Source: Gammaproteobacteria bacterium
GTDB lineage: Bacteria; Pseudomonadota; Gammaproteobacteria; Pseudomonadales; Azotimanducaceae
DNA: 61,859 nucleotides
Assembly: GCA_028821125.1 (NCBI GenBank)
Contig: JAPPHD010000069.1
Location: forward strand, 1-61,859
Direction: 5' to 3'
Shown here: positions 23,029 to 39,307 of the stretch, piece after piece
Numbering within the stretch: position 1 is the stretch's first letter
How the letters are laid out: every line of letters starts with the position of its first letter
Notes under the pieces: generated by a model
Databases searched by the model: none
The model's input: only the letters and a program-made list of their open reading frames with translations
What the model was told of the DNA's origin: nothing
Made by a program: the position numbers and the translations under genes

Positions 23029-24435
23029 CTACTCCGGCTCGTCCGGGGTCGTGGCGGCGAGTTCCTTCAATTGCGAAAAGAGCGCCTGCCGCTCCAGCCA
23101 GCGTCCGTTCACCATGACGCCTTCGAGTTTCCAGAGGTTTTCGATGTCATCGAGCGGATTCGCGCCGAGCAATACGAGATCGGCCGCCATCCCGGGCAGA
23201 ACCCTGCCGCGACGGTCCTCCTCGCCCAGGTAGCGCGCCGGCCCCGTCGTGGCCGCCTGCAAGGCCTCGTACGGCGACAGCCCGGCTTCCACGAAGGCGC
23301 CGAGTTCATCGATCAGCGTGAATCCCGGCACAAGCGACGGAAACGTATCCGTACCACTCATCACCCCGGCTCCGGCATCGTGCAGTTTCCGCAGGAACTT
23401 CAGCATCTGCGGCCGGGCCTGCCTCAACATGTCCCGGGATTCCGAAGAGAACAGTTCTTCCAGGCCCGACTCGCGAAACCGGGCGATGTAATCGGCGGGC
23501 AGGTAGGCGGCCATCGGGTGGTCCGCATAGGCTTCGAGCCGGTCGGCATCGATCAGCATTGAATTGACGACGAAGGTCGGGCAATTCCAGGTGCCCGCCG
23601 ACACCGTCGCCCGGACCAGTTCGTCCATTCGCGCCTCCGACATCTTGAGCCAGGAGGCGAAGCGTTCGGCGCTGCGCCCGCCGTCTTTCTCGAGAGCCTC
23701 CAGCGACAGGCCGTCGATGTCGTAACCGCGAAAGTGCTCGATCGAGGCCTGGCCGTCGGCAAGAACCTCCTCCACGCCCACTTCGAACGGCACGTGCCCG
23801 AAATACGGAATGCCAAGGTCTCCGGCCTCGTCCACCACTGCCTTGTAGGATTCCCGGGAAAGGGTGTGATAGATCTTGATCGACCCGTAGCCGTCCGCCG
23901 CAAACTGGCGCACGGCGGCCCGGGCTTCCTCCGCCGTCAGCACCTTGGTCGCAAAACCCCAGACGGCGTTCTCCCCTTCAAGCAGCGGACTGGCGTTTTC
24001 CATGCGCGGGCCAGCCAGGTCCCCGTTCCCGATCGCCCGCGCGAGGGCGAGCGTCGCCGGCGAACCGACGGCATTGCGAAGCGTGGTGACACCGGTCGCC
24101 AGGTAAAGCAACAGGTCGGCACGTTCTCCCGCCTGGTCCGGCTGATAGTCGAATCCCACATGCGCATGCATGTCCGCAAGCCCGGGCAGAAGGAACATTC
24201 CCGATCCGTCGATGCGTACGGTCCCGGCCGGAACGGTCACCTCGTCCTCCGGGTCGACCGACAGAATACGGTCGCCCCGGACCAGGACCGTTCGATGCGG
24301 CGCCGGAACGGGGCTGTCCATGGAGAGGAGGGTGACATCGACAAACGCGTAATCCGCATGTTCCATCGGCGAATCGGGCTCCGAGGCGGCAGTGGCGGTG
24401 AGCAGGGTCAGTGCAACGAACATTGCAATGTGCAT
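23029..24435 (-). CDS. Exported amidohydrolase (COG1228/prolidase-like)
   Basis: The 468-residue precursor has a Sec signal (MFVALTLLTATAASEPDS). The amidohydrolase core shows all expected metal ligands: HAH in GLADMHAHVGF, Lys (carbamylated) in GSIKIYHTL, His in YFGHVPFEVG, His in ASIEHFRGYD and Asp in VMSGTDTFPS. Proteins of this group include Xaa-Pro, Xaa-Arg and Xaa-Lys dipeptidases and cyclic-amide hydrolases, so specificity cannot be assigned. Its stop lies just before the start region of the CehA/McbA gene at 23022, suggesting one minus-strand operon from 24435 to 16999. Confidence 0.9.
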   Translation of the reverse strand: MHIAMFVALTLLTATAASEPDSPMEHADYAFVDVTLLSMDSPVPAPHRTVLVRGDRILSVDPEDEVTVPAGTVRIDGSGMFLLPGLADMHAHVGFDYQPDQAGERADLLLYLATGVTTLRNAVGSPATLALARAIGNGDLAGPRMENASPLLEGENAVWGFATKVLTAEEARAAVRQFAADGYGSIKIYHTLSRESYKAVVDEAGDLGIPYFGHVPFEVGVEEVLADGQASIEHFRGYDIDGLSLEALEKDGGRSAERFASWLKMSEARMDELVRATVSAGTWNCPTFVVNSMLIDADRLEAYADHPMAAYLPADYIARFRESGLEELFSSESRDMLRQARPQMLKFLRKLHDAGAGVMSGTDTFPSLVPGFTLIDELGAFVEAGLSPYEALQAATTGPARYLGEEDRRGRVLPGMAADLVLLGANPLDDIENLWKLEGVMVNGRWLERQALFSQLKELAATTPDEPE

Positions 24436-24443
24436 GGCATCAT

Positions 24444-24479
24444 TCTCCGATCCGGTCTCCGATCAGGTCTCCATTCCGG
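24444..24479. repeat. Three tandem 12-bp units between divergent genes
   Basis: TCTCCGATCCGG, TCTCCGATCAGG and TCTCCATTCCGG lie directly upstream of the amidohydrolase start (24435), in the 320-bp divergent region before the TonB receptor. The rest of this region (24480-24755) shows an AT-richer stretch around 24600-24660 that probably holds the promoters, but no confident -35/-10 pair. Confidence 0.75.
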
Positions 24480-24755
24480 TCCGCTTCACCCACAGTCCCT
24501 CCGAACCATGCCACGAAACCGATGCCCAGGCACAGGCTCGATTCGCCCAAAAAAGCGTCCGCCAGACTTCGAGCCAAGCAAAAAAATGCCAGTTCGTTCG
24601 ATAATGGCTCTTTTCATAACTATTTCACCTTTTCGCAATAGATAGACCGCCACGTCTACCCTAAGATCGAATCGGGCAAAGCGCCCCGGAGGACGAATAC
24701 TCACCGGCAAGTCGGCGTCCGGAACCAGCGCCGCGACCCATTGTTGGAGGCTCTC

Positions 24756-26933
24756 ATGAAAACCGTTCAAGCCGCCGGCAGCAGACTGCACTTCAGCGCA
24801 GTGCTGCTCCTGTCGATCGCATGCGTTTGCGCGCCCCTGAAGGCGCAGGACAATGCGCAACCGGTTCTCGAGGAAATCCTGGTCACCGCCTCGAAACGCA
24901 CCGAAAACGTGCAGGACCTGCCATTCAGTGTCGTCGCCATCGGCGAACAGACGATCAACGACAGTCAACTGGCTACCGCCCAGGATCTGGCCCAGATGAC
25001 GCCGGGGCTGAATTTCATCGAGACCATCGGCCGCGCAACCGGCACGCCCGTAATCCGCGGCATCTCCCCCACCGCCTTCCAGGACCCTACGGTGCTTGTC
25101 TATACCGATGGCTTCACGCTCGGGCTGACCGGCGAGTCGAACAACGCCTACCTGTTCGACCTCGAGCGCATCGAGGTGCTCAAGGGCCCCTACCCCACCC
25201 TGTACGGGCGCAACGCCCTGGGCGGCGTGATCAACTACATCGTCAAGAAACCGGGAGACGAGTTCGAGGGCTACGCCCGGGCCGAGTGGGGCAGCATCAA
25301 GGGTGGGGCCGGCGTCCTGGACACCGCGTTCAGCGCCGGAGGGCCATTGGTGGAAAACCGGCTCTACGCCAAGGTCGCCGTCGGCTACCGGGATGACGGC
25401 GGCTACCTCGACAACCTGTTCGACGGCGGCTCCAATGTCAACGATCAGGAAGACCTGAACGTGGGCGGCATCCTGCGCGCCACGCCGTCGGACAACCTGG
25501 AACTGACGCTTACCTCCACCTATGCGGAGGCCGACGATGCCTGCGGCGACTGCTCCAACGTTCCGCAACCCTGGGGCCTCGGCACCTTTTTCGACTACGT
25601 GATGCTGGGCCAGGGCACGCCGGACATCAACGATGCGGACCGTTCCGTGAACCAGGACCTGCTCGGGTTCTTCGACAAGGAGGAGCAGCGGCACGTGCTC
25701 AACGTCAGCTACGACTTCGGCGCCGTGAACCTGACCAACATCTTCGGTTACGGCGAACTCGACATCCACACCAAGGCCGACATCGACCGGCTGCCGGGCT
25801 TTACGCTGACGGGTTCGATCGCCTTCGACAACTTCGTCGACATGCAGGGGTGGAGCAACGAACTGCGCCTGTCATCGACCGGCGACGGTGCCTTTCGCTG
25901 GCTGCTCGGCTTCTACTATTTCGACCTCGAAAGAGACCAGGTGATCACGCTCGATACCCTGTTCGGCACCTTCCCGGTCGAGGACAGCGCCCGGGATATC
26001 GAAAACTACGCGTTCTACGTCAACGCCGACTACGACATCACCGAGCGTTTCACCATCGGCTTCGGGCTGCGCTACGACGATGAACAGACCGGCATCGAAG
26101 ACCTGCTGACCGGCATCTCCCGTGAAGGCGATGCCGACGAGATCCTGCCCAAGTTCACCGCCAGCTACCGCCCCTCCGACGACCTCACGCTCTACGCCAC
26201 GGTTTCGAAGGGCTATCACGCCGGCGGCCTGAACTCGCCAACCGCCCCGTCGCCCACCTACGACCCCGAATTCCTCTGGAACTATGAGGTCGGCGCCAAG
26301 GGGACCTCCCCCGGAGGAAGGATGCGCTACGACGTTGCCGCGTTCTACATGGACTGGACCGACCAGCAGTTGGAGACCACGTTCTTCAACGGCTTCTTCA
26401 ATGAGGCTTATGTGATCAATGCCGGCAAATCGCGGGTGTACGGCATCGACGGCTCGATGCAGTTGGAACTTGGCGACGGGCTTTCCATCTCGGCCGCTCT
26501 CGCCTGGCTGAACGCCGAGTACAAGGAGGCTACCGACAGCCTCACCGCCCCGGGGCTGGGTCTCGACCCCGATATTTCGGGCAACGACATGATCAACACG
26601 CCGGACATCACGGCGACGGTGAGCGCCCAGTACCTCAGGCCCGTCGGCAGCGGCCGCTGGAACATGCGACTGCGCTTCGACGGCACCTACAACGGCGAGT
26701 TCGCCGTCGACTCCTCGAACGTGGGAGTCGTGGACGCCTACTTCATGGCCAATGCCTATGCGGGCATACAGAACGAGCACATCGAAATCGGCCTCTTCGC
26801 GCGCAACCTGTTCGACGAGGAATACCTGACCGGCGGTTTCGTTCCCGGATTCAATCCGTTCCTCGCCTTCCCGCCGCTGGCATCCATCGGCAGGCCGCGA
26901 ACCGTTGGAGTGCGCCTGCGCTTGGCCTATTGA
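24756..26933 (+). CDS. TonB-dependent outer-membrane receptor
   Basis: The 725-residue precursor starts at the ATG preceded by GGAGG at 24746-24750. The signal peptide ends near CAPLKAQ. The TonB box and plug follow (VLEEILVTASKRTENVQDLP; TDGFTLGLTG; RIEVLKGPYPTLYGRNALGG), then a long beta-barrel ending in RLRLAY. It takes up an organic ligand across the outer membrane. The stop codon overlaps the amidohydrolase start (TGATG), so receptor and hydrolase are translationally coupled. This strongly suggests that the hydrolase acts on what the receptor imports. Confidence 0.95.
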   Translation: MKTVQAAGSRLHFSAVLLLSIACVCAPLKAQDNAQPVLEEILVTASKRTENVQDLPFSVVAIGEQTINDSQLATAQDLAQMTPGLNFIETIGRATGTPVIRGISPTAFQDPTVLVYTDGFTLGLTGESNNAYLFDLERIEVLKGPYPTLYGRNALGGVINYIVKKPGDEFEGYARAEWGSIKGGAGVLDTAFSAGGPLVENRLYAKVAVGYRDDGGYLDNLFDGGSNVNDQEDLNVGGILRATPSDNLELTLTSTYAEADDACGDCSNVPQPWGLGTFFDYVMLGQGTPDINDADRSVNQDLLGFFDKEEQRHVLNVSYDFGAVNLTNIFGYGELDIHTKADIDRLPGFTLTGSIAFDNFVDMQGWSNELRLSSTGDGAFRWLLGFYYFDLERDQVITLDTLFGTFPVEDSARDIENYAFYVNADYDITERFTIGFGLRYDDEQTGIEDLLTGISREGDADEILPKFTASYRPSDDLTLYATVSKGYHAGGLNSPTAPSPTYDPEFLWNYEVGAKGTSPGGRMRYDVAAFYMDWTDQQLETTFFNGFFNEAYVINAGKSRVYGIDGSMQLELGDGLSISAALAWLNAEYKEATDSLTAPGLGLDPDISGNDMINTPDITATVSAQYLRPVGSGRWNMRLRFDGTYNGEFAVDSSNVGVVDAYFMANAYAGIQNEHIEIGLFARNLFDEEYLTGGFVPGFNPFLAFPPLASIGRPRTVGVRLRLAY

Positions 26934-28483
26934 TGAGGTGGCCGGGCGTTCAGGGCTCGCCGACCGTGGGCCGGCAGGCGGCAGCAGTCTGCGCCGCGCC
27001 TCTCGATGCGGCGGCGAAGCGTTCCGGGCCGTGCGGCTGGGTGCTGCTCGCGGCGGCCGCGGCCGGTTGCGAGGCCCCTCCACCCGCAGTGGACGGCGAT
27101 ATCGCCTTCGTGAACGTCAACGTCGTCTCGATGCTCTCGGACCAGGTGACCCCAACGCAGACGGTCATCGTCGAGGACGGGATCGTGACCCGCATCGTAC
27201 CCGAGGGCAGCGTCACGCTCGCCGACGGCGTCCTTGCCATCGACGGCGCCGGCCGCTACCTCATGCCGGCCCTGGCCGACATGCACACCCACGTATCCGA
27301 TACCGAGTCGCTGCAACTGAACGTCGCCTACGGCGTGACGGCGCTGCGCAACCTGTGGGGCAACGAAGAGGTCCTGGCCTGGCGCGATGCGGTCGCGGCG
27401 GGCGACCTGTTCGGCCCCGAGATCCTCACCGCCTCGCCCATCATCGACCACGACCCGCCGTCCATTCCCGGCTCGGCCCTGCTGACCCGGCCGGAGGATG
27501 CGGATGCCATGGTGAAATCCTTCAAGGAACAGGGTTACGACTTCCTGAAGCCCTACCGACTGCTGAAAGAAGACGTCTATGTCGCGATGATGGAAGCTTC
27601 CGAGAAGTACGGGATTCCGGTGGAAGGCCACATGCCCGAGGCCATAGATGTGGCCCAGGCGATCGAACTCGGCCATGACGTCATCGAGCACGCCACCGGC
27701 TTCAGCGCCGCCATCGTCGCCGAAGGCATCCCCTGGAATCCGGCTTTCCGTTCCCGCGAAATGGTCGAGACCGTCGGCAGGATCAATGCAGGGGAACTCG
27801 AATACGAGCAGGTCTTCCGCCGCGACCGGCTGCGCGAACTCTCGCGCTTCGCCGCCCGGAGCGGCACCGCCGTCAGCGTCACCTTTCAGGCGGTAGGGCT
27901 GCGGGCGCTGTCCGGGGCGGACCGGCAGGCGCTGCGGGAGCATCCGCTGATCGGATACGTGGCGCCGGAACTCCGCGACTTCTGGTTTGCCGACGATTTC
28001 GACAGCGTTCTGCCCGGCGACGACGCGTTCACCGATGGCGAGATCGACTCCCTGGAAGGATTCGTCACCGGGGAATTCGGGGCCTGGATCGGCATCATGC
28101 ACGAAGAGGGCGTGCTGTTGCTCGGTGGCACCGATGCCGCCAATCCGGGCCTCTTTCACGGCTGGTCGCTGCACGACGAGCTTGCGAACCTGGTGCGCTG
28201 GGCGGACCTCTCGCCCCATCAGGCCATCGAGACGGTGACGGTCAACGCCGCAAAGTATTGGCAAAAGGAGGGTGAGCGCGGCATTGTGGCGGCCGGAGCC
28301 GAGGCGGACCTGCTGTTGCTTGGCGCCAATCCGCTTGCAGACATCACGAATACACGGACCATCGAAGGACTGGCGATCGACGGCACGTGGCTGGACCGGG
28401 CGCAATTGGACGACCTGCTCGACTCGGTAGCCGATTCCTATGCGGCGAGACTCGGCGCCGCCAGCTCGACAGGTTCGCGTTGA
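26933..28483 (+). CDS. Lipoprotein amidohydrolase (COG1228/prolidase-like)
   Basis: The 516-residue protein starts at an ATG that shares one base with the receptor stop. A hydrophobic stretch ends in the lipobox AAAAAGC (Cys near residue 46), so it should be membrane-anchored outside the cytoplasm. Metal ligands: HTH in ALADMHTHVSD, Lys in YDFLKPYRLL, His in VEGHMPEAID, His in DVIEHATGF and Asp in LLGGTDAANPGLF. It belongs to the same subgroup as the genes at 32725 and 36699 (LWGNEE/LWGEP motif after HxH). It probably hydrolyses the imported compound. Confidence 0.9.
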   Translation: MRWPGVQGSPTVGRQAAAVCAAPLDAAAKRSGPCGWVLLAAAAAGCEAPPPAVDGDIAFVNVNVVSMLSDQVTPTQTVIVEDGIVTRIVPEGSVTLADGVLAIDGAGRYLMPALADMHTHVSDTESLQLNVAYGVTALRNLWGNEEVLAWRDAVAAGDLFGPEILTASPIIDHDPPSIPGSALLTRPEDADAMVKSFKEQGYDFLKPYRLLKEDVYVAMMEASEKYGIPVEGHMPEAIDVAQAIELGHDVIEHATGFSAAIVAEGIPWNPAFRSREMVETVGRINAGELEYEQVFRRDRLRELSRFAARSGTAVSVTFQAVGLRALSGADRQALREHPLIGYVAPELRDFWFADDFDSVLPGDDAFTDGEIDSLEGFVTGEFGAWIGIMHEEGVLLLGGTDAANPGLFHGWSLHDELANLVRWADLSPHQAIETVTVNAAKYWQKEGERGIVAAGAEADLLLLGANPLADITNTRTIEGLAIDGTWLDRAQLDDLLDSVADSYAARLGAASSTGSR

Positions 28484-28520
28484 TGGGCGGCGCACCCCAG
28501 TCGGCCGCCAGGCGGGTTCC

Positions 28521-29669
28521 ATGAACCGGAAGCTGACCCTCGAGGAACCGCGATCCGATATCACCGTGGCGCAGGCGCCCATCGACTTGAACAGCACCTC
28601 ATTGCAGATCGATGCCGTCGCACGCGCTGCCTCTCCCGCCATCGGGCACCAGTCCGAAGGCGCCGGCCCCACACCCGGGCCCTCGAGCCGCAAGGCACTC
28701 ACACGCAATTTCGACGAACTCCGGTACAGCGTCAGAAGCTACATTCCCCAGGACGAGGGCGAAGGCTACTGGGACCTGTATCGGGTCAGCCAGGACATCT
28801 TCGTGACGATCGCCAACTGCCTGTACCACGAAGTCAAGCGGGTCGACGTACCGGGAGAGCGTTGCCTGAAGATACGCTTCCTGCGATCCGGCGTGCTCGT
28901 CGGGCAGAACGGCCAGCACTACCTCGCCGGTGCGAACGCGATGCTCTCGCTCTATCCCGGCGAATCCGGGGATGGCTATTTCATTCCCGCGAGGACGCGC
29001 TGCAGCCTGGTCATCGTGCAATGCTCCAGCCGGGCACTGTGGAACGAACTCGATATCGACCCCCGGCAGGCGCCCATGCCCCTGAAGATACTCGCCGGCG
29101 ACGAAGATCAGCCGCCCCATGCCCAGACATTCGAACCGGCGGCAACAGTCACCCGTGCCTTTGCGGACATACTCGACTCCAGGGATCTCTTCGAGGCGAA
29201 CCTGCGCGGCTGGTTCGTCGAGGCCAAGGCCAGGGAGATCATCGCCTCCCTCGTTCAGGTCCTGCTGCAGAAGCCGGACCTGAAGGTCGGCGGCAACCGT
29301 CTCAGCCGGCGCGACCGGCACCGGATCCTGGAGGCGAAGGAGATCATCCTCGCCAACATCGAAGACGTACCGGCAATTCCGGAACTTGCCCACATGGTCG
29401 GCATGAACCAGACCAAACTGAAAGCGGGTTTCAAGGAAATCGTCGGCTCGACCGTCGGGCGATTCATATCCAGGAGCCAGATGAACCTGGCGGCAAGGAT
29501 GCTGACGTCGACCGATCTCGACATCTGCCGCATCAGCCAGTCTTTCGGGTTTCGCCACCCGGGCAATTTCACACAGGCGTTCAAACGTCACTTCGGGCGT
29601 ACGCCGCGGGCCTATCGGCGCCACGCCACCGTGCTGTCGGAAAACGCGCCCGTGCAGAGGAGTCATTGA
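28521..29669 (+). CDS. AraC family transcriptional regulator (PchR-like)
   Basis: The 382-residue protein starts at ATG 28521; an earlier in-frame start would overlap the previous gene. The C-terminal AraC domain (about residues 270-370) has two helix-turn-helix units, the second with the family signature FGFRHPGNFTQAFKRHFGRTP. The N-terminal half (CLKIRFLRSGVLVGQNGQHY) resembles the ligand-sensing part of PchR-type regulators. It lies inside the plus-strand operon and is followed after 2 bp by the MDR reductase, so it may activate its own operon. Confidence 0.9.
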   Translation: MNRKLTLEEPRSDITVAQAPIDLNSTSLQIDAVARAASPAIGHQSEGAGPTPGPSSRKALTRNFDELRYSVRSYIPQDEGEGYWDLYRVSQDIFVTIANCLYHEVKRVDVPGERCLKIRFLRSGVLVGQNGQHYLAGANAMLSLYPGESGDGYFIPARTRCSLVIVQCSSRALWNELDIDPRQAPMPLKILAGDEDQPPHAQTFEPAATVTRAFADILDSRDLFEANLRGWFVEAKAREIIASLVQVLLQKPDLKVGGNRLSRRDRHRILEAKEIILANIEDVPAIPELAHMVGMNQTKLKAGFKEIVGSTVGRFISRSQMNLAARMLTSTDLDICRISQSFGFRHPGNFTQAFKRHFGRTPRAYRRHATVLSENAPVQRSH

Positions 29670-29671
29670 GA

Positions 29672-30709
29672 GTGCGAGCAGCCGTTGTATACGAACATGG
29701 CGACCGGGACGTCATCCGGCTCGTCGACGACTATCCCCGGCCCGGGGCAGCACCGGGCTGGGTCGTCCTGCGGGTCGGCGCGACGTCCGTGAACTACCAC
29801 GACATCTTCACGCGCCGGGGCATGCCCGGCATCCGCATACCGCTGCCGATCGTCATCGGTTCCGACGTGGCCGGCGAAATTGCTGAGATCGGGAAAGGTG
29901 TCGAGGGATGGTCGGTCGGTGAGCGCGTGCTGGTCGATCCCCTGCCCTGCGAAGCCACGAACGGGCTCTTTCTCGGCGAGAAGCTCGATGGCGGCCGCGC
30001 CGAGTTCTGCGCCGTCCACTCGGAGCAACTGGTGCGGATAGCCGACTCCGTCAGTTACGAACAGGCCGCCTCGCTGCCGATCGCCTATGGCACCTCCTAC
30101 CGGATGCTGTTCACCAGGGGCGGCCTCCGGGCCGGTGAAACAGTGCTGATCCTCGGTGCCAGCGGCGGCGTCGGCACAAGCTGCGTGCTGCTCGCGAAGA
30201 TGGCCGGCGCCGAGGTGATCGCCTGCGCATCCTCGGACGGGAAACTCGCGCAGCTCGGCGAGATCGGCGCCGACCACCTGGTCAACTACCGGCGCGACGA
30301 CATGCGCGAGGCGGTCTACGACATCGTCGGCAAGCCACGGGTCGCCGGAACCGGCGGTGTCGATGTGGCGGTCAACTACACCGGCGGCAAGACCTGGAAG
30401 GAGACCCTGCGCTGCGTCCGGCTCGGCGGCCGCATGCTCACCTGCGGGGCAACGGCGGGCTTCGATGAAGAGGTGGACTGCCGATACGTGTGGACCTTCG
30501 AGCATACGATCATCGGTTCCGACGGCTGGCGTCGGCAGGAGATCGTCGACATGCTCTCGCAGGTGGAGGCCGGCAAGCTCGAGCCGGTGATCCACAAGGT
30601 GCTTCCACTCGATGAAATCCGGGAGGCCGACCGGCTGCTCGAAGACCGCGAAGCCTTCGGCAAGGTCATCGTTACGCCCCGAACGGTCGACGCCACAGGC
30701 CCGGCGTGA
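29672..30709 (+). CDS. MDR superfamily reductase (quinone oxidoreductase-like)
   Basis: The 345-residue protein starts at GTG two bases after the AraC stop. The N-terminal GroES-like fold contains VGATSVNYHDIFTRRG; the nucleotide-binding domain contains LILGASGGVGTSCVLLA (GxGGVG type). The Cys-rich structural zinc lobe of classical alcohol dehydrogenases is shortened (VDPLPCEATNGLFLGE). NAD(P)H-dependent reduction of an enone, quinone or acyl double bond is likely. It lies directly before a thioesterase and an acyl-CoA ligase, which fits a small catabolic pathway. Confidence 0.88.
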   Translation: MRAAVVYEHGDRDVIRLVDDYPRPGAAPGWVVLRVGATSVNYHDIFTRRGMPGIRIPLPIVIGSDVAGEIAEIGKGVEGWSVGERVLVDPLPCEATNGLFLGEKLDGGRAEFCAVHSEQLVRIADSVSYEQAASLPIAYGTSYRMLFTRGGLRAGETVLILGASGGVGTSCVLLAKMAGAEVIACASSDGKLAQLGEIGADHLVNYRRDDMREAVYDIVGKPRVAGTGGVDVAVNYTGGKTWKETLRCVRLGGRMLTCGATAGFDEEVDCRYVWTFEHTIIGSDGWRRQEIVDMLSQVEAGKLEPVIHKVLPLDEIREADRLLEDREAFGKVIVTPRTVDATGPA

Positions 30710-30780
30710 ACAAGTCCGGCCGGTACAAACTTGACGGGTTTCGCACTTTCCATACGAGAACAAAGAGGCAGCGCAGAAGC

Positions 30781-31200
30781 ATGGCGGATTTCGACACCAC
30801 CGAGCAGATCCAGGAAAGCCTGGATTCATCGCCGTTCAGCGCCTTCTGCGGGTTCCGCATCGAGGAAGTGCACAAGGACGACGGCCGGATCGTCATGCGC
30901 ATGCCGATGCGCCCGGAAATGGAACGCCTGGCCGGTTCCGGGCAGATGCACGGGGGACCCATCGCCTGCCTTGTGGACACCGCAGCCTGCTATGCCTGCA
31001 TGCTCGTCCTCGATCATGGCGTGCCCACGATCAACTTCCGCATCGACTATCTGCGGCCGGTCATCGATTCGGACCTGAAAGCCGTCGCCCGGGTACGTCG
31101 CGCCGGGCGAACCGTCGCGGTGGCGGATGTGGACATCTTCAACGACGGCGGCAAGCTGGTCGCAACGGGCCGCGGAACCTTCAGCGCGAGTGCCGGATGA
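30781..31200 (+). CDS. Hotdog-fold thioesterase (PaaI-like)
   Basis: The 139-residue protein begins at ATG 30781. It has the PaaI-type hotdog signature: GQMHGGPIACLVDTAACYACM (conserved HGG and catalytic-type Asp) and TINFRIDYLRPV. These enzymes hydrolyse acyl-CoA thioesters, often aryl or short-chain. It lies 19 bp before the acyl-CoA ligase start. Pairing a ligase with a thioesterase is common where dead-end CoA esters must be recycled. Confidence 0.9.
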   Translation: MADFDTTEQIQESLDSSPFSAFCGFRIEEVHKDDGRIVMRMPMRPEMERLAGSGQMHGGPIACLVDTAACYACMLVLDHGVPTINFRIDYLRPVIDSDLKAVARVRRAGRTVAVADVDIFNDGGKLVATGRGTFSASAG

Positions 31201-31219
31201 CCGGTCAGGGCAAACCGGA

Positions 31220-32728
31220 ATGACGGACAGCCCCCGGAATCTGGGTGATGTCATGGGCGACCGACGGTTGTCCGACGAGGTCGCTATCGTCAGCGTCGAC
31301 GCCGACGAGGGCGTCCGCGAATGGCGGTGCCACGAAATCGAGGCGGGAACGCTCGCATACGCCGACCTGCTGCAGCGCCGCGGCATCGAACCCGGTTCCA
31401 CGGTCGGCCTGTTTTCGAAGAACTCGGTACACAACCTGATGGCCTACCAGGGCATCATGCGCGCCGGCTGCGTCTGCGTACCCGTCAACATCCGCCAGCC
31501 TGCCGGCATTATCCGCTACATTTGCGACGATGCGCAGATCCGCTTCGCCTTCACGGACGGGACGGCTCGTTCGCCCATCCGCGAAGGCATCGAGCAGGTT
31601 CGGCTCGGATCCTTGGAAGCCGAAGCGGACGCGCCCCCGCTGCCCCGGGTGGACGAGCAATCCACCGCTCTCATTCTCTACACCTCCGGCTCCACCGGCC
31701 GCCCCAAGGGCGTGGTCCTCTCCCACTTCAGCCAGCTATCCATGATCGACGCCGTTACCGGCGGTACCGAGAGCCGTTTGTTCGCCGGCCAGCGCGGCAT
31801 CGTGGTGGCGCCGATGTTCCACATGAACGCGCTGGTGTTCATCGCTTCGTTTCTCAAGGGCGGCGGCTCCCTCGTGCTGATGCCGAAGTTCGATGCGGCG
31901 CGATTCGCCGACGCCATCGGCACCTACGGCGTCAACGTCATCACCGGCGTACCGACCATGATCGCGATGCTGCACGCGGCCTGGCGCGACATCGGCAAAC
32001 CGGTCTTCGCTGAGGTCAATACCGTCTACATCGGCTCGGCGCCGGTGACCCGGGCCATCGTCGAACAGTCTCTGGAGATGATGCCAAACGCACAGGTGCT
32101 AAACTCCTACGGCACCACCGAAACCGGCGGCGGCCTGTTCGGGCCCCACCCGGACGGGCTTGAGCGCCCGCCGACCTCGGTGGGTTATCCGGGAGTACAT
32201 GTGGAGTTGCTCCTGGACGGCGACGGAGCTCTGGTCGTCAGGGCCCCCAGCATGATGTCCCGCTATCTGAACCTGCCGGACCTCACGGCCAGCCGGCTCA
32301 GGGACGGCTGGTTCAACACCGGCGACCTGTTCGAGCGCGACGAAAACGGTTTTTTCTTCTTCAAGGGCCGGGCCGACGACATGTTCGTGTGCTCCGGCGA
32401 GAACATCTATCCCGGCGAGGTCGAACAGGCCATCGAGTCTTCAACCAAGGTCGTGCAGGCCGCCGTGGTGCCCGTGCCGGATGCCATCCGGGGCCAGATG
32501 CCCGTGGCGTTCGTGGTGGCGGCCGACGGCAAGGTGAGCGAACGCGACGTACAGGATCACGTCAGGTCGAACGCGGCGCCCTACCTGTATCCGAGACGGG
32601 TCTGGTTCGTGGATGCCCTGCCCTTGGCGAGCACCACCAAGATCGACCGCAGGGAACTGATGCACCGGGCCGAGGCACTGGTCGCAGCGGACGGCAACCC
32701 CTCAAAAAAACGCGGAGACACCCGATGA
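31220..32728 (+). CDS. AMP-dependent acyl-CoA synthetase/ligase
   Basis: The 502-residue protein starts at ATG 31220. The ATP motif is LYTSGSTGRPKGVVLSH. Further family motifs are GTTETGGG (A5), WFNTGDLFERDENGF (A7), KGRADDMFVCSGENIYPGEVE (A8, in parts) and a C-terminal catalytic Lys in STTKIDRREL. It adenylates a carboxylic acid and transfers it to CoA. The stop codon overlaps the next start (ATGA). In this operon the acid is probably the hydrolysis product of an amidohydrolase. Confidence 0.93.
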   Translation: MTDSPRNLGDVMGDRRLSDEVAIVSVDADEGVREWRCHEIEAGTLAYADLLQRRGIEPGSTVGLFSKNSVHNLMAYQGIMRAGCVCVPVNIRQPAGIIRYICDDAQIRFAFTDGTARSPIREGIEQVRLGSLEAEADAPPLPRVDEQSTALILYTSGSTGRPKGVVLSHFSQLSMIDAVTGGTESRLFAGQRGIVVAPMFHMNALVFIASFLKGGGSLVLMPKFDAARFADAIGTYGVNVITGVPTMIAMLHAAWRDIGKPVFAEVNTVYIGSAPVTRAIVEQSLEMMPNAQVLNSYGTTETGGGLFGPHPDGLERPPTSVGYPGVHVELLLDGDGALVVRAPSMMSRYLNLPDLTASRLRDGWFNTGDLFERDENGFFFFKGRADDMFVCSGENIYPGEVEQAIESSTKVVQAAVVPVPDAIRGQMPVAFVVAADGKVSERDVQDHVRSNAAPYLYPRRVWFVDALPLASTTKIDRRELMHRAEALVAADGNPSKKRGDTR

Positions 32729-34833
32729 CAGACTACCCTTCAACGACATCGCGTATGGCAGCGATTGCGCGATGCGCACTCGCCCTGGCATTCGGTAGCG
32801 TCCTGCCGGCCTGCGATCAAGCCGTTGAGCAGCCCATCGCGCCCGTGGACGAGCCGGTTCCCGTCTATGCGTTCACGAAGGTCAACGTCGTGCCGATGAC
32901 CGCAGACCGGATCGACAGTGACCAGACCGTCATCGTAACCGAAGGCCGGATCACCGCGGCCGGCGATTCCCGGGGCGTTGAAATCCCGCCGGGCGCCCAA
33001 ATCGTCGACGGCAGTGGCAAGTACCTGGCGCCCGGCCTCACCGACATGCATGCCCACCCCATGACAACAGCAGACCTCGATGCCTACCTGGCCAACGGCG
33101 TCACCCTGATCCGCGCCCTGTGGGGTGAGCCCGCCGTACTGGACCTGCGCGAGGGAGTCGCCTCGGGCACCATCGCGGGACCTCGAATCGTCACCGGAGG
33201 ACGCATCGTCGACGGCGAACCCGTCATTCACTACGGCACCGAGTCCGTGCTGAACGCAGCCGATGCCGAGGAAGTGGTCGCGCGGCACAAGGCCGCGGGC
33301 TACGACTTCATCAAGGTCTATTCGAACCTGAGCATCGAGGCATTCGATGCCATTGCCGAAGCCGCCGCGGCGCACGACATCCCCTTTGCCGGCCATATAC
33401 CCGATGCGGTACCGGCGGCGCATGCCTTCCGGTCCGGCATGCAGACCGCGGAACACCTGATCGGCATCGGCCCCGCGTCGCTCCGGGAGGGCGCCGAGTA
33501 CTACACGCGCTTTCATCCTGAGTTCCCGGGCTACGCTGCCAGAATCGGGACAGGCGAGATCGCGCTGGACGAGGTCTACGACGATGCGAAACTGAAGGAA
33601 CTGGCGGAACTCGCGAGGGAAACCGGCATATGGACCGTTCCCACGCTGACCACCATCCGCGGCACCGCGGCCTCGCCGGAGGAAATGGCGGCGTTCTCCG
33701 AGCGCGAAGCGACAGGGTACGTCGACTACACCGTCCAGTCGTTCTGGCAGATGTCGGCGGCTTTCCGGGCCGCCTGGACGCCGGACACCTATCGCGGCGC
33801 GCGGCTTCAGCTCGAACAGGACCTCAGACAGCTCAAGGCGTTTCACGATGCCGGCGCCCGCATACTGGCGGGCACGGACGCACCCAATCCCTGGGCCTAC
33901 GTCGGCTTCGGCGTGGTCGATGAACTGGAACTCTACGTCGAAGCCGGCCTCCCGCCCTTCGCCGCTCTGCAGACCGCAACCACCGCACCGGCGGAATTCA
34001 TGAACGAGGCCGGTCGCGGCGGCATCGTTGCCGAAGGCGCCCGGGCCGACCTGGTGCTGCTGGGTGGCAATCCGCTCGAGAACGTCGCCGCCTACCGTGA
34101 TATCGCCGGTGTCATGGCCGCGGGCCAATGGTTCGACCGCCATGAACTGGACTCGCGGCTGGCGGCAATCAAGACCGCCAGCGACCGCAAGGCGGCGGTG
34201 TTCCGCGATGCGCCCGCCTGGCCCACGCAAGGGGCCGAGCTGGTGCCCATCAGCGCCGAGTTCGTGCTGGAGCGGGGCGAGGCAAGCCCGGGCGCGGAGC
34301 GTATCGCAACCGTGGCGACAGAGAACGGCGCGACCGCCTTCCTGGGCCAGTTTCTGGCGCCGGACGGGTCCGTACGCAACTCACGGGTCGAAACCGGGGA
34401 CGGGGGTTTCGCTCGGAAAATCAGCGTCGAACAGGTGTCCGGTGACGGTACATTGCAAAAGCGGGTCTACGAACTGCAGGACATCGGCGCACACATTCTC
34501 ACCGGCACCGCACTCGACTGGATCGTGCTCGGCCCGTCCTTCGCGGCCATGCAGGACGGCGAATCGCGCGACTTTGCGGTACGGCGCCTGAAAGACGGCG
34601 GCCCCGCCGATGCCGGAACCATGACCGTGACTCGGCAGCCCAGCGAGGTCATCGTGGGGCATTTCTATTTTACCGGCGCCAACCGGCACGACATCTCGAT
34701 CGCCGATGCGGGGGGAACCCGGGAACTGAGTGTCTGGATGGGCGGCGGGTTCTACTCGGGCTGGCCCGTCAGGATCGTTGAGCGATCTGCCGGTACGGAC
34801 AGTCCGGCCCTTGAATACAGGAGAATTCTGTAA
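32725..34833 (+). CDS. Lipoprotein amidohydrolase with extra C-terminal domain
   Basis: The 702-residue protein starts at ATG 32725 in a 4-bp overlap with the ligase. The lipobox is SVLPAC (Cys about residue 31). The amidohydrolase core has HAH in LTDMHAHPM, Lys in YDFIKVYSNLS, His in FAGHIPDAVP, His in QTAEHLIG and Asp in LAGTDAPNPW. The last 200 residues or so form a separate beta-rich domain; LTGTALDWIVL and LSVWMGGGFYSG align with LTGTAADILIL and IRYWMAPPGLFSG in the protein at 36699. I do not recognise that domain. The stop shares one base with the next start (TAATG). Confidence 0.9.
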   Translation: MTDYPSTTSRMAAIARCALALAFGSVLPACDQAVEQPIAPVDEPVPVYAFTKVNVVPMTADRIDSDQTVIVTEGRITAAGDSRGVEIPPGAQIVDGSGKYLAPGLTDMHAHPMTTADLDAYLANGVTLIRALWGEPAVLDLREGVASGTIAGPRIVTGGRIVDGEPVIHYGTESVLNAADAEEVVARHKAAGYDFIKVYSNLSIEAFDAIAEAAAAHDIPFAGHIPDAVPAAHAFRSGMQTAEHLIGIGPASLREGAEYYTRFHPEFPGYAARIGTGEIALDEVYDDAKLKELAELARETGIWTVPTLTTIRGTAASPEEMAAFSEREATGYVDYTVQSFWQMSAAFRAAWTPDTYRGARLQLEQDLRQLKAFHDAGARILAGTDAPNPWAYVGFGVVDELELYVEAGLPPFAALQTATTAPAEFMNEAGRGGIVAEGARADLVLLGGNPLENVAAYRDIAGVMAAGQWFDRHELDSRLAAIKTASDRKAAVFRDAPAWPTQGAELVPISAEFVLERGEASPGAERIATVATENGATAFLGQFLAPDGSVRNSRVETGDGGFARKISVEQVSGDGTLQKRVYELQDIGAHILTGTALDWIVLGPSFAAMQDGESRDFAVRRLKDGGPADAGTMTVTRQPSEVIVGHFYFTGANRHDISIADAGGTRELSVWMGGGFYSGWPVRIVERSAGTDSPALEYRRIL

Positions 34834-34928
34834 TGGCTTGCGAAACGCCCGATCCGTCGGCAATCGGAACACCGGATTCGTCGGCAACCGGAACACCCGA
34901 TCCGTCGGCAACCGGAACGCTGAAATAG
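34833..34928 (+). CDS. 31-residue octapeptide-repeat leader-like ORF
   Basis: This short frame starts at an ATG inside the TAA stop of the amidohydrolase and ends in a TAG whose last base begins the GTG start of the Nramp-like gene (TAGTG). AGGAG lies 9 bases before the ATG. It encodes MACE followed by three copies of the octapeptide TPD-P/S-SA-I/T-G. The DNA is a 24-bp unit repeated three times. It could be a translational coupler, a leader peptide, or an accidental frame created by repeat expansion in the transporter's 5' end. Confidence 0.5.
   Translation: MACETPDPSAIGTPDSSATGTPDPSATGTLK
34845..34922. repeat. 24-bp tandem repeat, about three units
   Basis: The core TCGGCAACCGGAACACCCGA recurs with a few changes starting near 34857, 34881 and 34905. 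The repeat lies wholly within the 31-codon frame and just before the Nramp-like start. All units keep both overlapping frames open. Confidence 0.88.
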
Positions 34929-36298
34929 TGGCAACCGACACGCCCAAGCGGCCGCCGGCCTATCCCCTCGGGGACGCCATACCGCCGGCCGTCCTCAAGC
35001 GGCAGGCCGAAGGCCTCGCCCGCGCCCGCCAACGCGGCCTGATCGGGGGACTCCCCACCTACGTGAGACTCGGCGGCCCCGGTTTCATCGGCGCCGCCTT
35101 GACGCTCGGCGCCGGCACCATGACCTCCTCCATGCTGGCCGGCGCCGAATTCGGCTACCGGACGCTGTGGATCTTCTGGGTGGCCGCCGGTTCGGGCATG
35201 TTCATGATGGCGGCCATGGCCCGGTTCACCTGCCAGGGCGGCTTCAACCTGATCGAGAAGCAGGCGGAACTGCACGGCTGGTTCCTGGCCCGGGTGCTGA
35301 CCGCCGCCGTCGGCATGGTGACCGTCGCCGTCGCCTTCAATTTCGGACAGGTGGCGCTCGGCACGCACTTGATCGACAGCCTCGCGCAGATCGACGGCCC
35401 GGGCTTCGCCCAGGAGGTCAACTGGCCCCTGTACATCCTCCTCACAAGCTGGATCGCGCTGAGCTACGGCCGCGGCAGTTCGGGCGGCACGAAGCTCCTG
35501 GAAGCCTTCATGAAGTGGAGCCTGGCAGCGATGATCCTCTGCTTCGCTGCCTGCCTGGCCATCGTCGGCATCGACTGGCCGGCGGCCCTGCGCGGCACCT
35601 TCGTTCCCTGGCTGCCGAGCGGTGTGGCGGGCATCGACCTGTTCATCGCCTCCACCGCAGCGGCCATCGGCGTCGCCGACTGGGTGCTCTACCACTTCAC
35701 GGCACACGTGAAGGGCTGGAAGCGCGAACACGAGGGGCTCGCCCGGGTCGACCTGATCGCCGGTTTCTTCGTTCCTTTCTTCGTGGTGAACTTCCTGATC
35801 GTCTCGGTATTCGCCGGCACCCTGTACGCCAGCGGCGACGTTCCGCGCAGCGCCGCCGAACTGGCCCGGGCCCTGGTGCCGCTGCTCGGCGAGACCGGCG
35901 CGAGCTACGCCTTCATGATCGGCTTCCTCGCCGTCCCGGTGACCTCCACCATCGGCCTCTGCCTGCTGTCGGCCATGGGCATCCACGAGGTCATGGGCTG
36001 GAAACCCGACGTGCGTTCCTGGCGCTGGAAGGTCTGCCTGCTGCTGCCGCAGATCGGCTTTCTCGCGGCCTGGTACCCGAGCCCCGTCATGCTGATCATC
36101 ATCATCGCCGCGGCGCTGTCGCTGACCAACAACATCGTCGGCTGGTCGTTCTACATGATGCTCAACGACCGGAAACTGATGGGCGCCGCCCGCCCGAAGT
36201 CGCGCATCTGGAACCTGGGCATCATGATCCAGATCACGCTGTTGAACTGCGTCGCGATCACCTACGTGTTCAACCGTCTCGGCTGGTGGCAGTCGTGA
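34928..36298 (+). CDS. Nramp-family-like membrane transporter with non-canonical metal site
   Basis: A 456-residue protein with about 11-12 membrane segments, starting at GTG 34928. The fold is Nramp-like: GPGFIGAALTLGAG in segment 1, then FGYRTLWIFWVAAG. The metal-binding DPGN motif of segment 1 is replaced by residues around LTLGAGT, and I see no MPH motif in segment 6 (IASTAAAIGVADWVLYH). Canonical members import Mn2+/Fe2+; this one may carry a different substrate. It is embedded in the amidohydrolase operon; amidohydrolases need divalent metal, so a metal role remains possible. Confidence 0.8.
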   Translation: MATDTPKRPPAYPLGDAIPPAVLKRQAEGLARARQRGLIGGLPTYVRLGGPGFIGAALTLGAGTMTSSMLAGAEFGYRTLWIFWVAAGSGMFMMAAMARFTCQGGFNLIEKQAELHGWFLARVLTAAVGMVTVAVAFNFGQVALGTHLIDSLAQIDGPGFAQEVNWPLYILLTSWIALSYGRGSSGGTKLLEAFMKWSLAAMILCFAACLAIVGIDWPAALRGTFVPWLPSGVAGIDLFIASTAAAIGVADWVLYHFTAHVKGWKREHEGLARVDLIAGFFVPFFVVNFLIVSVFAGTLYASGDVPRSAAELARALVPLLGETGASYAFMIGFLAVPVTSTIGLCLLSAMGIHEVMGWKPDVRSWRWKVCLLLPQIGFLAAWYPSPVMLIIIIAAALSLTNNIVGWSFYMMLNDRKLMGAARPKSRIWNLGIMIQITLLNCVAITYVFNRLGWWQS

Positions 36299-36507
36299 GC
36301 CGCTTCGATATCGACCGGCGGGTTGGGCCGATGCGCCTGCGGGCCTGGTTCCTGATCGCCAATTTCCTCTTCAACGCCATGGCCCTGTACGGCCTCTCCC
36401 GCCTCATGGTTGCCGGCGAGGGAGTCGGCTTACTGGTCCTCGGCATCCTGGGTACGCTGGGTTGCCTGGCAGTGTTGTCGCAACCCAATCGGCCGGACGT
36501 GAAATGA
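36295..36507 (+). CDS. Small two-helix membrane protein
   Basis: A 70-residue protein with a GTG start overlapping the transporter stop (GTGA). Two hydrophobic segments, RAWFLIANFLFNAMALYGL and GVGLLVLGILGTLGCLAVL, suggest an inner-membrane protein. I do not recognise the family. Coupled translation with the transporter suggests an accessory role. Confidence 0.65.
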   Translation: MSRFDIDRRVGPMRLRAWFLIANFLFNAMALYGLSRLMVAGEGVGLLVLGILGTLGCLAVLSQPNRPDVK

Positions 36508-36698
36508 CCTGGACAAAATGAGTAGCTGGCAAGCCCTCAGAGTTCGGCTTCGTGCCGCGCCGTCTGAACCCCGAAGGCCTGGCGCGCGTGTTGCCTCAGA
36601 ACTGCCGTCGGGTTGCAGCGCGAGTGTCGTCAGGAAGCATTCGTTCCCGGTGGGATAAGATGGCGCCGCCCAAAAGCTAATACACGACGTGACACACT

Positions 36699-38729
36699 AT
36701 GTTCCGTAGCGTTTCCCTGGCTGCCGCTATCCTTTTCGGAGCCGCCTGCACGCCCGAGCCATCGCCCGTACAGGGAGAGGTTGCCTTCGTCGGCGCCCAC
36801 GTCATCGATGTCGCGGCGGGCGAGGTCAGGAACGACTGGACGGTCGTCGTGGACAACGGATGGATTGTCCGGATCGGCCCGAGCGCCGAACTCGCGCTGT
36901 CCGAGGACGTCCCGGTCATCGACGGCACCGGGCGGTTCCTCGCGCCCGGCCTGGCCGACATGCACGCGCATGTTTTCAACGAGCACACCCTGATCCTGTA
37001 CCTCGCCAACGGCATCACCACGATTCGTAACATGTGGGGAGATCCCGAAGCACTGGCGCTGCGGCAGGCCGTCGAGGACGGCCGCGTTCCGGGCCCCCGG
37101 CTGGTGACCGCCGGCCAACTGCTCGACGGCGCACCGAAAATCTGGGCGGGGTCGACGGAAGTCTCCGACACCGGGGCGGCCGCTGCACTGGTCGCACAGC
37201 AGGCCGCCGACGGATACGACTTCGTCAAGGTCTACTCGCGCCTGACGCCCGAGGTGTTCGACGCCATGCTGGCCGCGGCGGCGGAACACGGCATCGAGGC
37301 ATCGGGCCACGTGCCGCAGGCGGTGCCCTTCATGCACGCCGTGCGCTCGGGAATGCGCACCGCGGAGCACATGATCGGCATGCTGTCTTCGGTGTTCGCC
37401 GACGAAAGCTGGCCGAATCCGGACCTCGCGGCCTACGACGAGCGTGCCGCGGCGTTCGTGGGGAAGATCGGGCGCGGTGAGATCGACCCGGACGATCTCG
37501 TCGACCCGGAAAAAGTGGCGCGCGTGGCGGCGGAACTCAGGGAACGCGACTTCTGGTTCGTGCCGACCATCGATGTCATGAAGAACTTCACCAGCCTGTC
37601 CCGGCGCAGGCACCCGGATGCCGTCCGCTACCTGACGCCGGTCGACCGGCAACTTGTCGCGCTGCTTGAAAGCACGGATTTCGCCGCCGCGCCGCCGGAC
37701 GTGAAGGCCGGCGAGGACATCCTCTACGCGGTGCGCGCCCGCGTGCTGCGCGACCTGCGCCGGCAGGGCGCGAAGGTGCTGGTCGGTACCGACGATTCCA
37801 TGCTCTCGGGTTTCGTCGTCGTCGACGAGATGCAATCCCTGGTCGATGCCGGCTTGACGCGCGCGGACGTGCTGCGCTCGGCGACGCTGGAGGCGGCGAA
37901 CTATCTGGGTGAACCCGGCCGGTTCGGAGAAATCAGGGAGGGTGCGGCAGCGGACCTGATTCTCGTTGACGGCAATCCGCTGGAAGACCTGGAGGCGCTG
38001 CGGTTTCCCCGGGGCGTGATGCGGGCGGGCCTGTGGTACACGCGGGCGGAACTCGACGGCGTGCTCGAGGAACTCGCCGCGAAGACCGAGGCGGTAGAGG
38101 CCGAATTCGCCGCGGCGCCGCCGATGCCTCCGGGAGCGGGCGCACGCTCCGACTTCCTCAGCGACGCCGGCGGCGCGGCGAGCATCGCGTCAAGCCGGTC
38201 CGGCGACGGGACGGTGGTGACCGCCGCTATTCGGGACGACGCCGACTGGCGAACGTTCCGGATATCGTCCACAGTCGGGGTTTTCACGGTGGAAGAGGAC
38301 GGATCGAGCGTGCTTCGGGCCGAGTCGGGCGACCGGGGCTGGCGCCTGACCGTCGGCTCCGAGGCGGCCGGCGAAGCGCTTCCCGGCGACGCCGCAGCCG
38401 TACTGACCGGGACGGCCGCCGACATCCTGATCCTCGATGCCGCTGTCGGCCTGCTGCCCGAAGGCAAGTCCCGAAACCTCGTCGCCTGGCGGTGCGGTCC
38501 CCGGTTCGATTGCAGCGAAAGCGCGCCGGAACGCCTGACCGTCACCGGACTCGGTACTCACCTCATCCGCGGCCACCGGATCTGGGAGTCGACGAACGTC
38601 TACGACCTCGTCCCGCCGGGCGGCGGCCCGGGCTCGATCCGTTACTGGATGGCGCCGCCCGGCCTCTTCAGCGGCGGCCCGGCCCGCCTCGAAACGGACG
38701 GCGTTCAGCACTGGCGACGAATACGGTGA
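36699..38729 (+). CDS. Lipoprotein amidohydrolase with extra C-terminal domain
   Basis: The 676-residue protein has lipobox LFGAAC (Cys17). Metal ligands: HAH in LADMHAHVFN, Lys in YDFVKVYSRLT, His in ASGHVPQAVP, His in RTAEHMIG and Asp in VLVGTDDSML. The C-terminal 200 residues are related to those of the protein at 32725 (shared LTGTA, RYWM/SVWM patterns), so these two genes are close paralogues. It starts 191 bp after the small membrane gene and may have its own promoter. Likely periplasmic hydrolysis of an amide or cyclic compound. Confidence 0.88.
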   Translation: MFRSVSLAAAILFGAACTPEPSPVQGEVAFVGAHVIDVAAGEVRNDWTVVVDNGWIVRIGPSAELALSEDVPVIDGTGRFLAPGLADMHAHVFNEHTLILYLANGITTIRNMWGDPEALALRQAVEDGRVPGPRLVTAGQLLDGAPKIWAGSTEVSDTGAAAALVAQQAADGYDFVKVYSRLTPEVFDAMLAAAAEHGIEASGHVPQAVPFMHAVRSGMRTAEHMIGMLSSVFADESWPNPDLAAYDERAAAFVGKIGRGEIDPDDLVDPEKVARVAAELRERDFWFVPTIDVMKNFTSLSRRRHPDAVRYLTPVDRQLVALLESTDFAAAPPDVKAGEDILYAVRARVLRDLRRQGAKVLVGTDDSMLSGFVVVDEMQSLVDAGLTRADVLRSATLEAANYLGEPGRFGEIREGAAADLILVDGNPLEDLEALRFPRGVMRAGLWYTRAELDGVLEELAAKTEAVEAEFAAAPPMPPGAGARSDFLSDAGGAASIASSRSGDGTVVTAAIRDDADWRTFRISSTVGVFTVEEDGSSVLRAESGDRGWRLTVGSEAAGEALPGDAAAVLTGTAADILILDAAVGLLPEGKSRNLVAWRCGPRFDCSESAPERLTVTGLGTHLIRGHRIWESTNVYDLVPPGGGPGSIRYWMAPPGLFSGGPARLETDGVQHWRRIR

Positions 38730-38891
38730 CGGAGGCGGCGATGCCGGCATGTCCCCGGACGTGTAAAATCACGCCGCTCGCGTCTCTCCCCCAGTCGCAT
38801 TGTTGATCGCAGCGATGCTTTGGACCGCTTCGTCAAAGGGCAGCGAGACGCTCCGCTGTTCGCCCCACAATCTGTACAGTGAATTGGCCGG

Positions 38892-39075: not shown

Positions 39076-39307
39076 TCCGCATCGCCTGCATGGCTCTGGG
39101 GGACGACCGGCATCTTCGTCGATGGCGTGGCGATGGCCGCTTCCGACAAACACCAGCAGACGAAGACCGCCCGCACCGGCCCGGGCAGGCGCCTGCCCAT
39201 CGAGACCAACCGTAGGGGAAAGAAGGTGAACGAAACCGCTTTCGCTCCATGTTACAGCGCTCGCTACAATGCTTGGCAGTGAGTATCGCCATCGGAAATG
39301 AGCCTTT

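Follow-up and report, generated by a model that had tools for sequence, protein, structure and literature searches.

A mosaic accessory operon with a non-canonical Nramp-fold carrier, and its possible role in the catabolism of amide-linked organic acids

Proteins of the Nramp family tend toward a default naming as metal transporters. In the SLC11 proteins, an aspartate residue of helix 1 is called universally conserved and is needed there (PMC8806188), and SLC11 outgroups that belong to the Pfam family PF01566 and have diverged at the metal-binding site have been described (PMC10606218). The Nramp-family gene pxpT is required for growth on 5-oxoproline, although metal transport was not excluded by its authors (PMC13274462). 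As for hydrolases that may release organic acids outside the cytoplasm, metalloBSH, an amidohydrolase that is secreted and has one more domain at its C-terminus, hydrolyses bile-salt amides (PMC13081902). In this study, I analysed a 61,859-nucleotide stretch (the window) of a Gammaproteobacteria bacterium of the Azotimanducaceae family (assembly GCA_028821125.1, contig JAPPHD010000069.1), in which a gene run at positions 24756-36507 combines an Nramp-fold protein with amidohydrolases and enzymes of acyl-CoA chemistry. It was found that the gene set is accessory and that the presumed operon is a mosaic of two modules. I propose, with a probability of about 0.5, that this accessory operon serves to degrade an amide-linked organic acid, for example an N-acyl amino acid or a small peptide conjugate.

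An accessory gene set composed of two modules

The genes are designated as follows; L004 to L008 are related loci introduced below.

g11: 23029-24435, minus strand, amidohydrolase with a signal-peptide-like start, divergent to A, member of module 1 (Amidohydro_1)
g11-A intergenic region: 24436-24755, presumed control region, alignable along its whole length with L005 and L006
A: 24756-26933, plus strand, TonB-dependent outer-membrane receptor (Plug and TonB_dep_Rec barrel)
B: 26933-28483, plus strand, amidohydrolase, possible lipoprotein (Amidohydro_1)
C: 28521-29669, plus strand, AraC-type regulator with an ATG start at 28521 (HTH_18 and HTH_AraC)
D: 29672-30709, plus strand, GTG start, MDR-family reductase, likely of the enoyl-CoA reductase type (ADH_N and ADH_zinc_N)
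E: 30781-31200, plus strand, hotdog-fold PaaI-like thioesterase (4HBT; TIGR00369 above its cut-off)
F: 31220-32728, plus strand, AMP-forming acyl-CoA ligase (AMP-binding and AMP-binding_C)
G: 32725-34833, plus strand, lipoprotein amidohydrolase with an extra C-terminal beta-rich domain (Amidohydro_1)
Leader open reading frame (ORF): 34833-34928, plus strand, 31 codons, mostly a tandem repeat, TAGTG coupling to H
H: 34928-36298, plus strand, non-canonical Nramp-fold carrier (PF01566)
I: 36295-36507, plus strand, 70-residue membrane protein paired with H (no Pfam or NCBIfam match)
J: 36699-38729, plus strand, amidohydrolase paralogue of G (36%), probably accessory, 191 bp after I

The run A-B-C-D-E-F-G-leader-H-I was verified at 24756-36507, entirely on the plus strand, and Pfam backs every assignment among the proteins A to J except that of I. 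A previous reading of the DNA letters (the sequence-only reading) had proposed a tightly coupled uptake-and-catabolism operon with exactly this extent. Every junction that it named is present where it placed it: stop and start codons overlap at A/B (TGATG), F/G (ATGA), G/leader (TAATG), leader/H (TAGTG) and H/I (GTGA), and the C-D gap is 2 bp. However, the spacers it did not list, B-C (37 bp), D-E (71 bp) and E-F (19 bp), are not tight couplings. The proposed extent also has to be widened, since g11 belongs to the set and lies outside these coordinates.

Is this gene set conserved elsewhere? A pattern scan of a species-genome collection with F gave 33 loci (L numbers denote loci and G numbers genomes). 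Five of them, L004-L007 and L008, are 66-86% identical in F, and these close relatives belong to five other metagenome-assembled genomes. The gene-neighbourhood search that the sequence-only reading had suggested thus found the set conserved: L004-L006 hold C-D-E-F-G-H-I in this order (a contig end cuts I in L005), and L008 holds C-VOC-D-E-F-H-I, without G. L007 is short, has C to F only and is cut at both ends. This removes a lack of conservation in other genomes, which that reading had named as the first of two possible refutations, and rules out a set confined to one genome. D is 75-86% and E is 70-90% identical in the five relatives, while the identity of C is 72-78% in L004-L007 vs 46% in L008. 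In L005 and L006, g11 is 85% identical and lies in the same divergent position. In L004 and L006, I is directly followed by a J-like remnant (82 of 676 residues, 44%), and L008 has a J-like gene (47%) downstream of I. The ORFs of the relatives were called with a simple GC-frame script, and some of their starts are wrong. Since L004-L007 are 97-99.5% identical to one another over the main blocks, mis-binning or one shared lineage is likely; their Alphaproteobacteria and Gammaproteobacteria labels come from record titles, and I claim no transfer between the classes.

Beyond these relatives, the genes were sought in genome samples in which the best candidates of each genome were considered, so that absences are less certain for common families such as the ligase. 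The first sample comprised 97 genomes, namely the window's own plus 96 relatives, which include eight congeners (best 15 candidates per genome). There, F has one other match at 1e-60, in G026 (about 44-45% identity), H has none at 1e-30, and the eight congeners have no match to F, H or G at strict thresholds. H has no other match at 1e-20 in 369 genomes of the class, the own genome included (best 4 candidates per genome). With an H alignment as the query, 398 genomes of the phylum gave one weak match at 1e-12, in G795 (53 bits; best 4 per genome). In 38 genomes including the own one (best ~30 candidates per genome), no match to G was found outside the window genome at 1e-60, and A has only matches of 32-35% identity there. 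The gene set is accessory because, across the genomes searched, F, H and G are nearly absent and A has no close match.

The operon is a mosaic of two modules: module 1 consists of A, G and g11, and module 2 is C-D-E-F-H-I. In the window they are interleaved as g11 / A-[B-C-D-E-F]-G-H-I. In COS2_bin_9, the genome of L008, g11 (81%) is divergent to A (82-84%), G (75%) lies directly after A, and this group is on a different contig from C-VOC-D-E-F-H-I. That genome thus has two units, one of A-G and g11 and the other of C to I lacking G, which rules out one indivisible unit. The synonymous divergence (dS) between the window and COS2_bin_9 also differs between the modules: in module 1 it amounts to 0.46 (A), 0.63 (G) and 0.50 (g11), vs 1.7 (D), 1.3 (E) and 1.5 (both F and H) in module 2. 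These values indicate that module 1 moved or was replaced separately and that the halves joined in more than one history. The difference in age speaks both for separability and for repeated association. G and g11 are both present in G837, G838, G839 and G841, that is, in four of the five relatives with module 2 (G840 was outside the search). I take the meeting of the modules in one genome, in varied arrangements and with varied ages, to indicate that they work together, although coincidence may also explain it where genomes have many such genes. The single operon of the sequence-only reading therefore survives as a conserved set but not as one unit.

In the sister genomes, A and B have decayed. 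Only the first codons and about the last 40 of A remain in L006 and L089, and an assembly error is unlikely because the breakpoints are identical in both. In L005, a single deletion has fused the beginning of A with the last part of B, which could be an assembly error. The L006 copy of B lacks about 55 residues including the GTD metal-ligand motif, and the L089 copy has an internal deletion of about 0.8 kb. In L004, an IS630-like insertion sequence (family assigned by eye from its frames) occupies 1-1227, where the 5′ part of B is expected. No A orthologue was found elsewhere in G837-G840, where the best matches are 29-33% (none at 1e-40 in G840). Since C to I remain uninterrupted in L004 and L006 (for L005, the check covered C, F, G and H), the receptor and B form a dispensable part. 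The two had been counted as part of the set; they are present in the window, but the rest can persist without them.

The ratios of nonsynonymous to synonymous divergence (dN/dS) between the window and the relatives are 0.10-0.25 for g11 and B to H (0.18-0.22 for g11; for B, the broken L006 copy was compared over aligned columns only), 0.23 for A and 0.24-0.28 for I. Thus, g11 and A to I are under purifying selection and are genes more than chance ORFs. Some values are higher between the near-identical sisters L004 and L006 (0.68 for F, 0.45 for H and 0.35 for E), where few changes enter the count.

Regulatory sites are less evident. No sigma-70-like promoter was found in 24300-40500, the g11-A intergenic region included. 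Terminator-like sites in the same range are below expectation (8 observed vs a shuffled mean of 10.1), and those on the plus strand between 26933 and 36507 sit within F and H. The g11-A intergenic region has a 12-bp tandem repeat (3.2 copies, 24444-24481) that is not evidently kept in the relatives. Another repeat (24 bp, 3.1 copies, 34844-34918) makes up most of the 31-codon leader ORF. At this position, L005 and L006 have a different insert of 89 bp, and L004 has none.

The D-E-F trio and the carrier H

D-E-F is a widespread module across Alphaproteobacteria and other Pseudomonadota, and this part of the set is not unique to the operon, which had been taken as a whole for a candidate new system. 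In the 20 loci whose F is at least 39% identical (L004-L023), D is present in all and E in 19 (missing in L018). Among the other 13 loci, L024 has D beside F and L036 has a weak D-like match in its vicinity, and E is absent from all. In at least 11 of the 20 loci, the trio is accompanied by a Glyoxalase_3 gene, identified by Pfam in L008 and by its likeness to the L020 protein in ten others. At least 10 of the 20 encode a family-5 solute-binding protein that belongs to an ABC transporter of the Opp/Dpp type; both counts are lower bounds, some loci being cut by contig ends. In another, independent set of 398 genomes from the phylum, F has 8 matches at 1e-80 including the window's own (best 3 candidates per genome). 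D and E lie within the same 11-17 kb as F in six of the seven others, the exception, L063, being cut by a contig end; Glyoxalase_3 is also present in six of the seven. In 5.39 million open papers, subscription literature being outside this collection, I found neither a described function of the D-E-F cluster nor a description related to the whole gene set.

The motifs of F (YTSGSTG at 154, YGTTE at 297, TGD at 367 and KID at 474) include the adenylation motifs of AMP-forming ligases and the C-terminal catalytic lysine. The solved chains closest to D are 2eih and 5k1s, and further ones are crotonyl-CoA reductases, quinone oxidoreductases and also alcohol dehydrogenases. A zinc alcohol dehydrogenase would presumably have a cysteine ligand near residue 40. 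Since residues 31-60 of D contain no cysteine, I rejected a zinc alcohol dehydrogenase; reduction of activated double bonds is the more likely activity of D. E carries HGGPIACLVD, with the HGG...D motif of PaaI-like thioesterases.

H is a clear match to PF01566 (E 1.9e-32, 113 bits, cut-off 29.8). When it is aligned to 10ky, with the metal-site segments locally ungapped, DPGN reads GAGT and MPH reads VAD in H, and these residues are identical in all four rows of the H orthologue alignment. The helix-1 aspartate of 7qia, the Mg2+ carrier EleNRMT, also aligns with a glycine in H, the sequence match to 7qia being weak. Thus, the Nramp-like label is correct as to family but not as to the metal-motif residues, the absence of which rules out a canonical metal Nramp. 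H is 79-90% identical in L004, L006 and L008, with dN/dS of 0.10-0.14 against the relatives.

The small ORF I directly follows H in the four loci holding H (the contig end cuts it in L005). It has 59-79% identity and a hydrophobic stretch (mean 2.4 over 19 residues), and its dN/dS given above indicates that it is a gene. In the same four loci, H-I occupies the place of the ABC transporter, while L007 ends before that point. The only relatives of H found on plasmids are three haloarchaeal proteins (25-27%), and neither these nor the weak relative in G795 have a consistent neighbourhood. From these features, the chances that H carries an organic acid rather than a metal may be put as even. A more specific idea is that H-I is a two-component secondary transporter of a new type, which has given up the metal site, imports a carboxylic acid with an obligate 70-residue membrane subunit and feeds the acyl-CoA pathway D-E-F; this is somewhat doubtful.

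Two further carriers lie upstream of the AraC gene in L008, a bile-acid:sodium-symporter-family protein (5170-6033) and a sodium:solute symporter (937-2547), and may be hints of an acid substrate.

Amidohydrolases, the proposed pathway and its rivals

In G, the predicted metal ligands are H109, H111, K197, H224, H244 and D385, and all are kept in the L004 and L006 orthologues. G thus has the binuclear ligand set of the cog1228/M38 type (HxH, Lys, His, His, Asp); the assignment follows, besides general knowledge, the description of M38 in a paper that presents an M38 amidohydrolase, an aminoacylase, with a metal site of this kind (PMC10781821). The AlphaFold model of G has a mean confidence of 72.5 as a whole and is good for the barrel, with at least 74 in the residue blocks of 41-490 except 331-350, and about 210 extra C-terminal residues are predicted as beta strands with low confidence. 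The folds nearest to the model are prolidases, the L-Lys/Arg carboxypeptidase Cc2672, the bottromycin amidohydrolase and ochratoxin A amidohydrolases, and molinate, phenylurea and atrazine hydrolases stand lower in the list. The carboxypeptidase, the prolidases and the bottromycin and ochratoxin A amidohydrolases act on amide bonds. Judging from the model, G resembles amidases. The best sequence match in the PDB of both G and B is the bottromycin amidohydrolase 6i5s. Both had been labelled as lipoproteins; by eye, the label is convincing for G (LPAC) and weaker for B.

The neighbourhood is rich in hydrolase genes. The region 23098-46357 contains 7 of the 43 Amidohydro_1 matches of the genome. 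One amidohydrolase match (41916-42977, minus strand) contains an in-frame TAG, and G838 and G839 likewise have matches with a single TAG. Beside g11, two CehA/McbA metallohydrolase genes above the NCBIfam cut-off (18989-21151 and 21148-23022, both on the minus strand) overlap by 4 bp. A PAF-acetylhydrolase-like hydrolase (53-2224, minus strand) and a DPPIV/S9-like peptidase (50221-53352, plus strand) each have a match to a cyclophilin-type prolyl isomerase domain in the C-terminal part.

How may these proteins work together? I infer the substrate and the direction of each step here. The receptor A would take the conjugate through the outer membrane, and the exported metal-dependent amidohydrolases G, g11 and B would cut the amide in the periplasm and free the acid. 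H with its partner I would import the acid over the inner membrane, replacing the peptide-type ABC transporter of many alphaproteobacterial loci. F may then convert the acid to its acyl-CoA, D may reduce a conjugated double bond of the acyl-CoA, and E may be a safety valve that recycles CoA from dead-end thioesters. The AraC protein C would turn the operon on. The order proposed before, from uptake through hydrolysis and CoA activation to reduction, is still the most economical one. That some catabolic acyl-CoA pathway is encoded here is quite probable, and that the substrate is of an amide type is slightly better than an even bet.

Several observations weigh against the proposed amide-conjugate catabolism. 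The similarity of G and B to any enzyme of tested function is weak (16-24% in the fold search), and the same match lists include molinate and phenylurea hydrolases, atrazine chlorohydrolase and imidazolonepropionase. Sisters that keep C to I have broken copies of A and B, so that entry through the outer membrane by this receptor is not obligatory. The differing divergence of the modules may also mean that each had its own history and that they have no common function. The AlphaFold model of H, made from four rows, had a pLDDT of 37 and was discarded. As for the trio, G026 has an F-like ligase without D, E or Glyoxalase_3 in 10.2 kb ending at a contig end. The window operon itself has no Glyoxalase_3 gene of the kind that accompanies D-E-F in 11 of the 20 loci; of the five Glyoxalase_3 matches in the window genome, the one nearest to the L008 protein is only 27% identical.

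The dispensability of A and B raises the question of whether module 2 (C to F, H and I) alone is the system, with A, B, G, g11 and J forming an interleaved local amidohydrolase cluster. The decay in the sisters, the separate contigs of COS2_bin_9, the different divergence and the many amidohydrolases nearby all suit this idea. I nevertheless regard it as unlikely, since G and g11 recur in four of the five relatives with module 2, and G is unmatched at 1e-60 in 37 other genomes, in which neither F nor H was found. A comparable doubt concerns H, which may still be a divalent-cation carrier that supplies, for instance, the metal of the amidohydrolases and is in the operon by chance. Its Pfam match, its weak sequence match to EleNRMT (7qia) and the caution of the PxpT authors about metal transport (PMC13274462) would fit. 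This too seems rather unlikely, for the aspartate that is universally conserved in SLC11 (PMC8806188) aligns with a glycine in H, and H-I stay with D-E-F in the four loci holding H, even where G is elsewhere.

The other rivals concern the purpose of the whole set. In a detoxification system, the exported amidohydrolases would destroy an amide-containing toxin of a host or of competitors, and D-E-F would handle the reactive acid released. The matches of the G model to ochratoxin A amidohydrolases and to phenylurea and molinate hydrolases, the accessory nature of the set, and the share of the genome's Amidohydro_1 matches found in the window, as in a xenobiotic-type hydrolase cluster, are in line with such a role. 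But the presence of a TonB receptor, an inner-membrane carrier and a CoA ligase implies a product that the cell seeks to take in, and no efflux pump was recognised among A to J; I consider detoxification improbable. A role in the biosynthesis or tailoring of a small molecule is very unlikely. F, D and E would then build an acyl group, and the amidohydrolases would mature a peptide as the bottromycin amidohydrolase does, which agrees with 6i5s being the best match of B and G and with a BioF/Kbl-like protein, below curated cut-offs, after the J-like gene in L008. However, neither a carrier protein nor a condensing enzyme was recognised among A to J, a precursor peptide did not come to notice (none was searched for as such), and the position of D-E-F beside peptide-uptake ABC genes in many alphaproteobacteria suits import.

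Comparison with known systems

The bottromycin amidohydrolase 6i5s aligns with B and G over most of the barrel; in its own pathway, that enzyme matures a peptide. MetalloBSH of Bilophila and G are both metal-dependent amidohydrolases, secreted or exported, and they are likened here by description only (PMC13081902); the extra C-terminal domain of metalloBSH may or may not have its counterpart in the C-terminal residues of G that are predicted as beta strands with low confidence. A SusCD polysaccharide utilisation locus was rejected, for there is no SusD domain, and A scores 35.8 against the SusC model TIGR04056, the cut-off of which is 368.

The cluster of D, E, F, Glyoxalase_3 and SBP_bac_5 in Reyranella, Enhydrobacter and other Alphaproteobacteria has the same D, E and F, 39-55% identical. 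It has an Opp/Dpp-type ABC transporter and often Glyoxalase_3, whereas the window has the Nramp-fold carrier instead. At 1e-8, neither H nor the window amidohydrolases have a match in L009-L023. The locus thus exposes a widespread ligase-reductase-thioesterase trio, often with Glyoxalase_3, for which no described function was found.

The SLC11/Nramp metal transporters and EleNRMT-type carriers (NRMT) share the Pfam family and the presumed fold with H, but H is without the metal-site residues of helix 1 and helix 6. Closer in context is YcsG/PxpT, also an Nramp-family protein in a catabolic operon for the use of an organic acid (PMC13274462); H is likened to it by family and operon context. Unlike the pxp operon, the window has acyl-CoA chemistry rather than a 5-oxoprolinase, and no pxpABC gene or pxp domain is present among A to J, which rules out a 5-oxoproline operon. 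The locus is thus, beside PxpT, a case built on gene context and motifs for organic-acid carriers within the Nramp family. Its catabolic logic is familiar; the unusual features are the Nramp-fold carrier without metal motifs but with a small partner in an acyl-CoA operon, and a mosaic build in which two functional halves are interleaved in one genome and unlinked in another.

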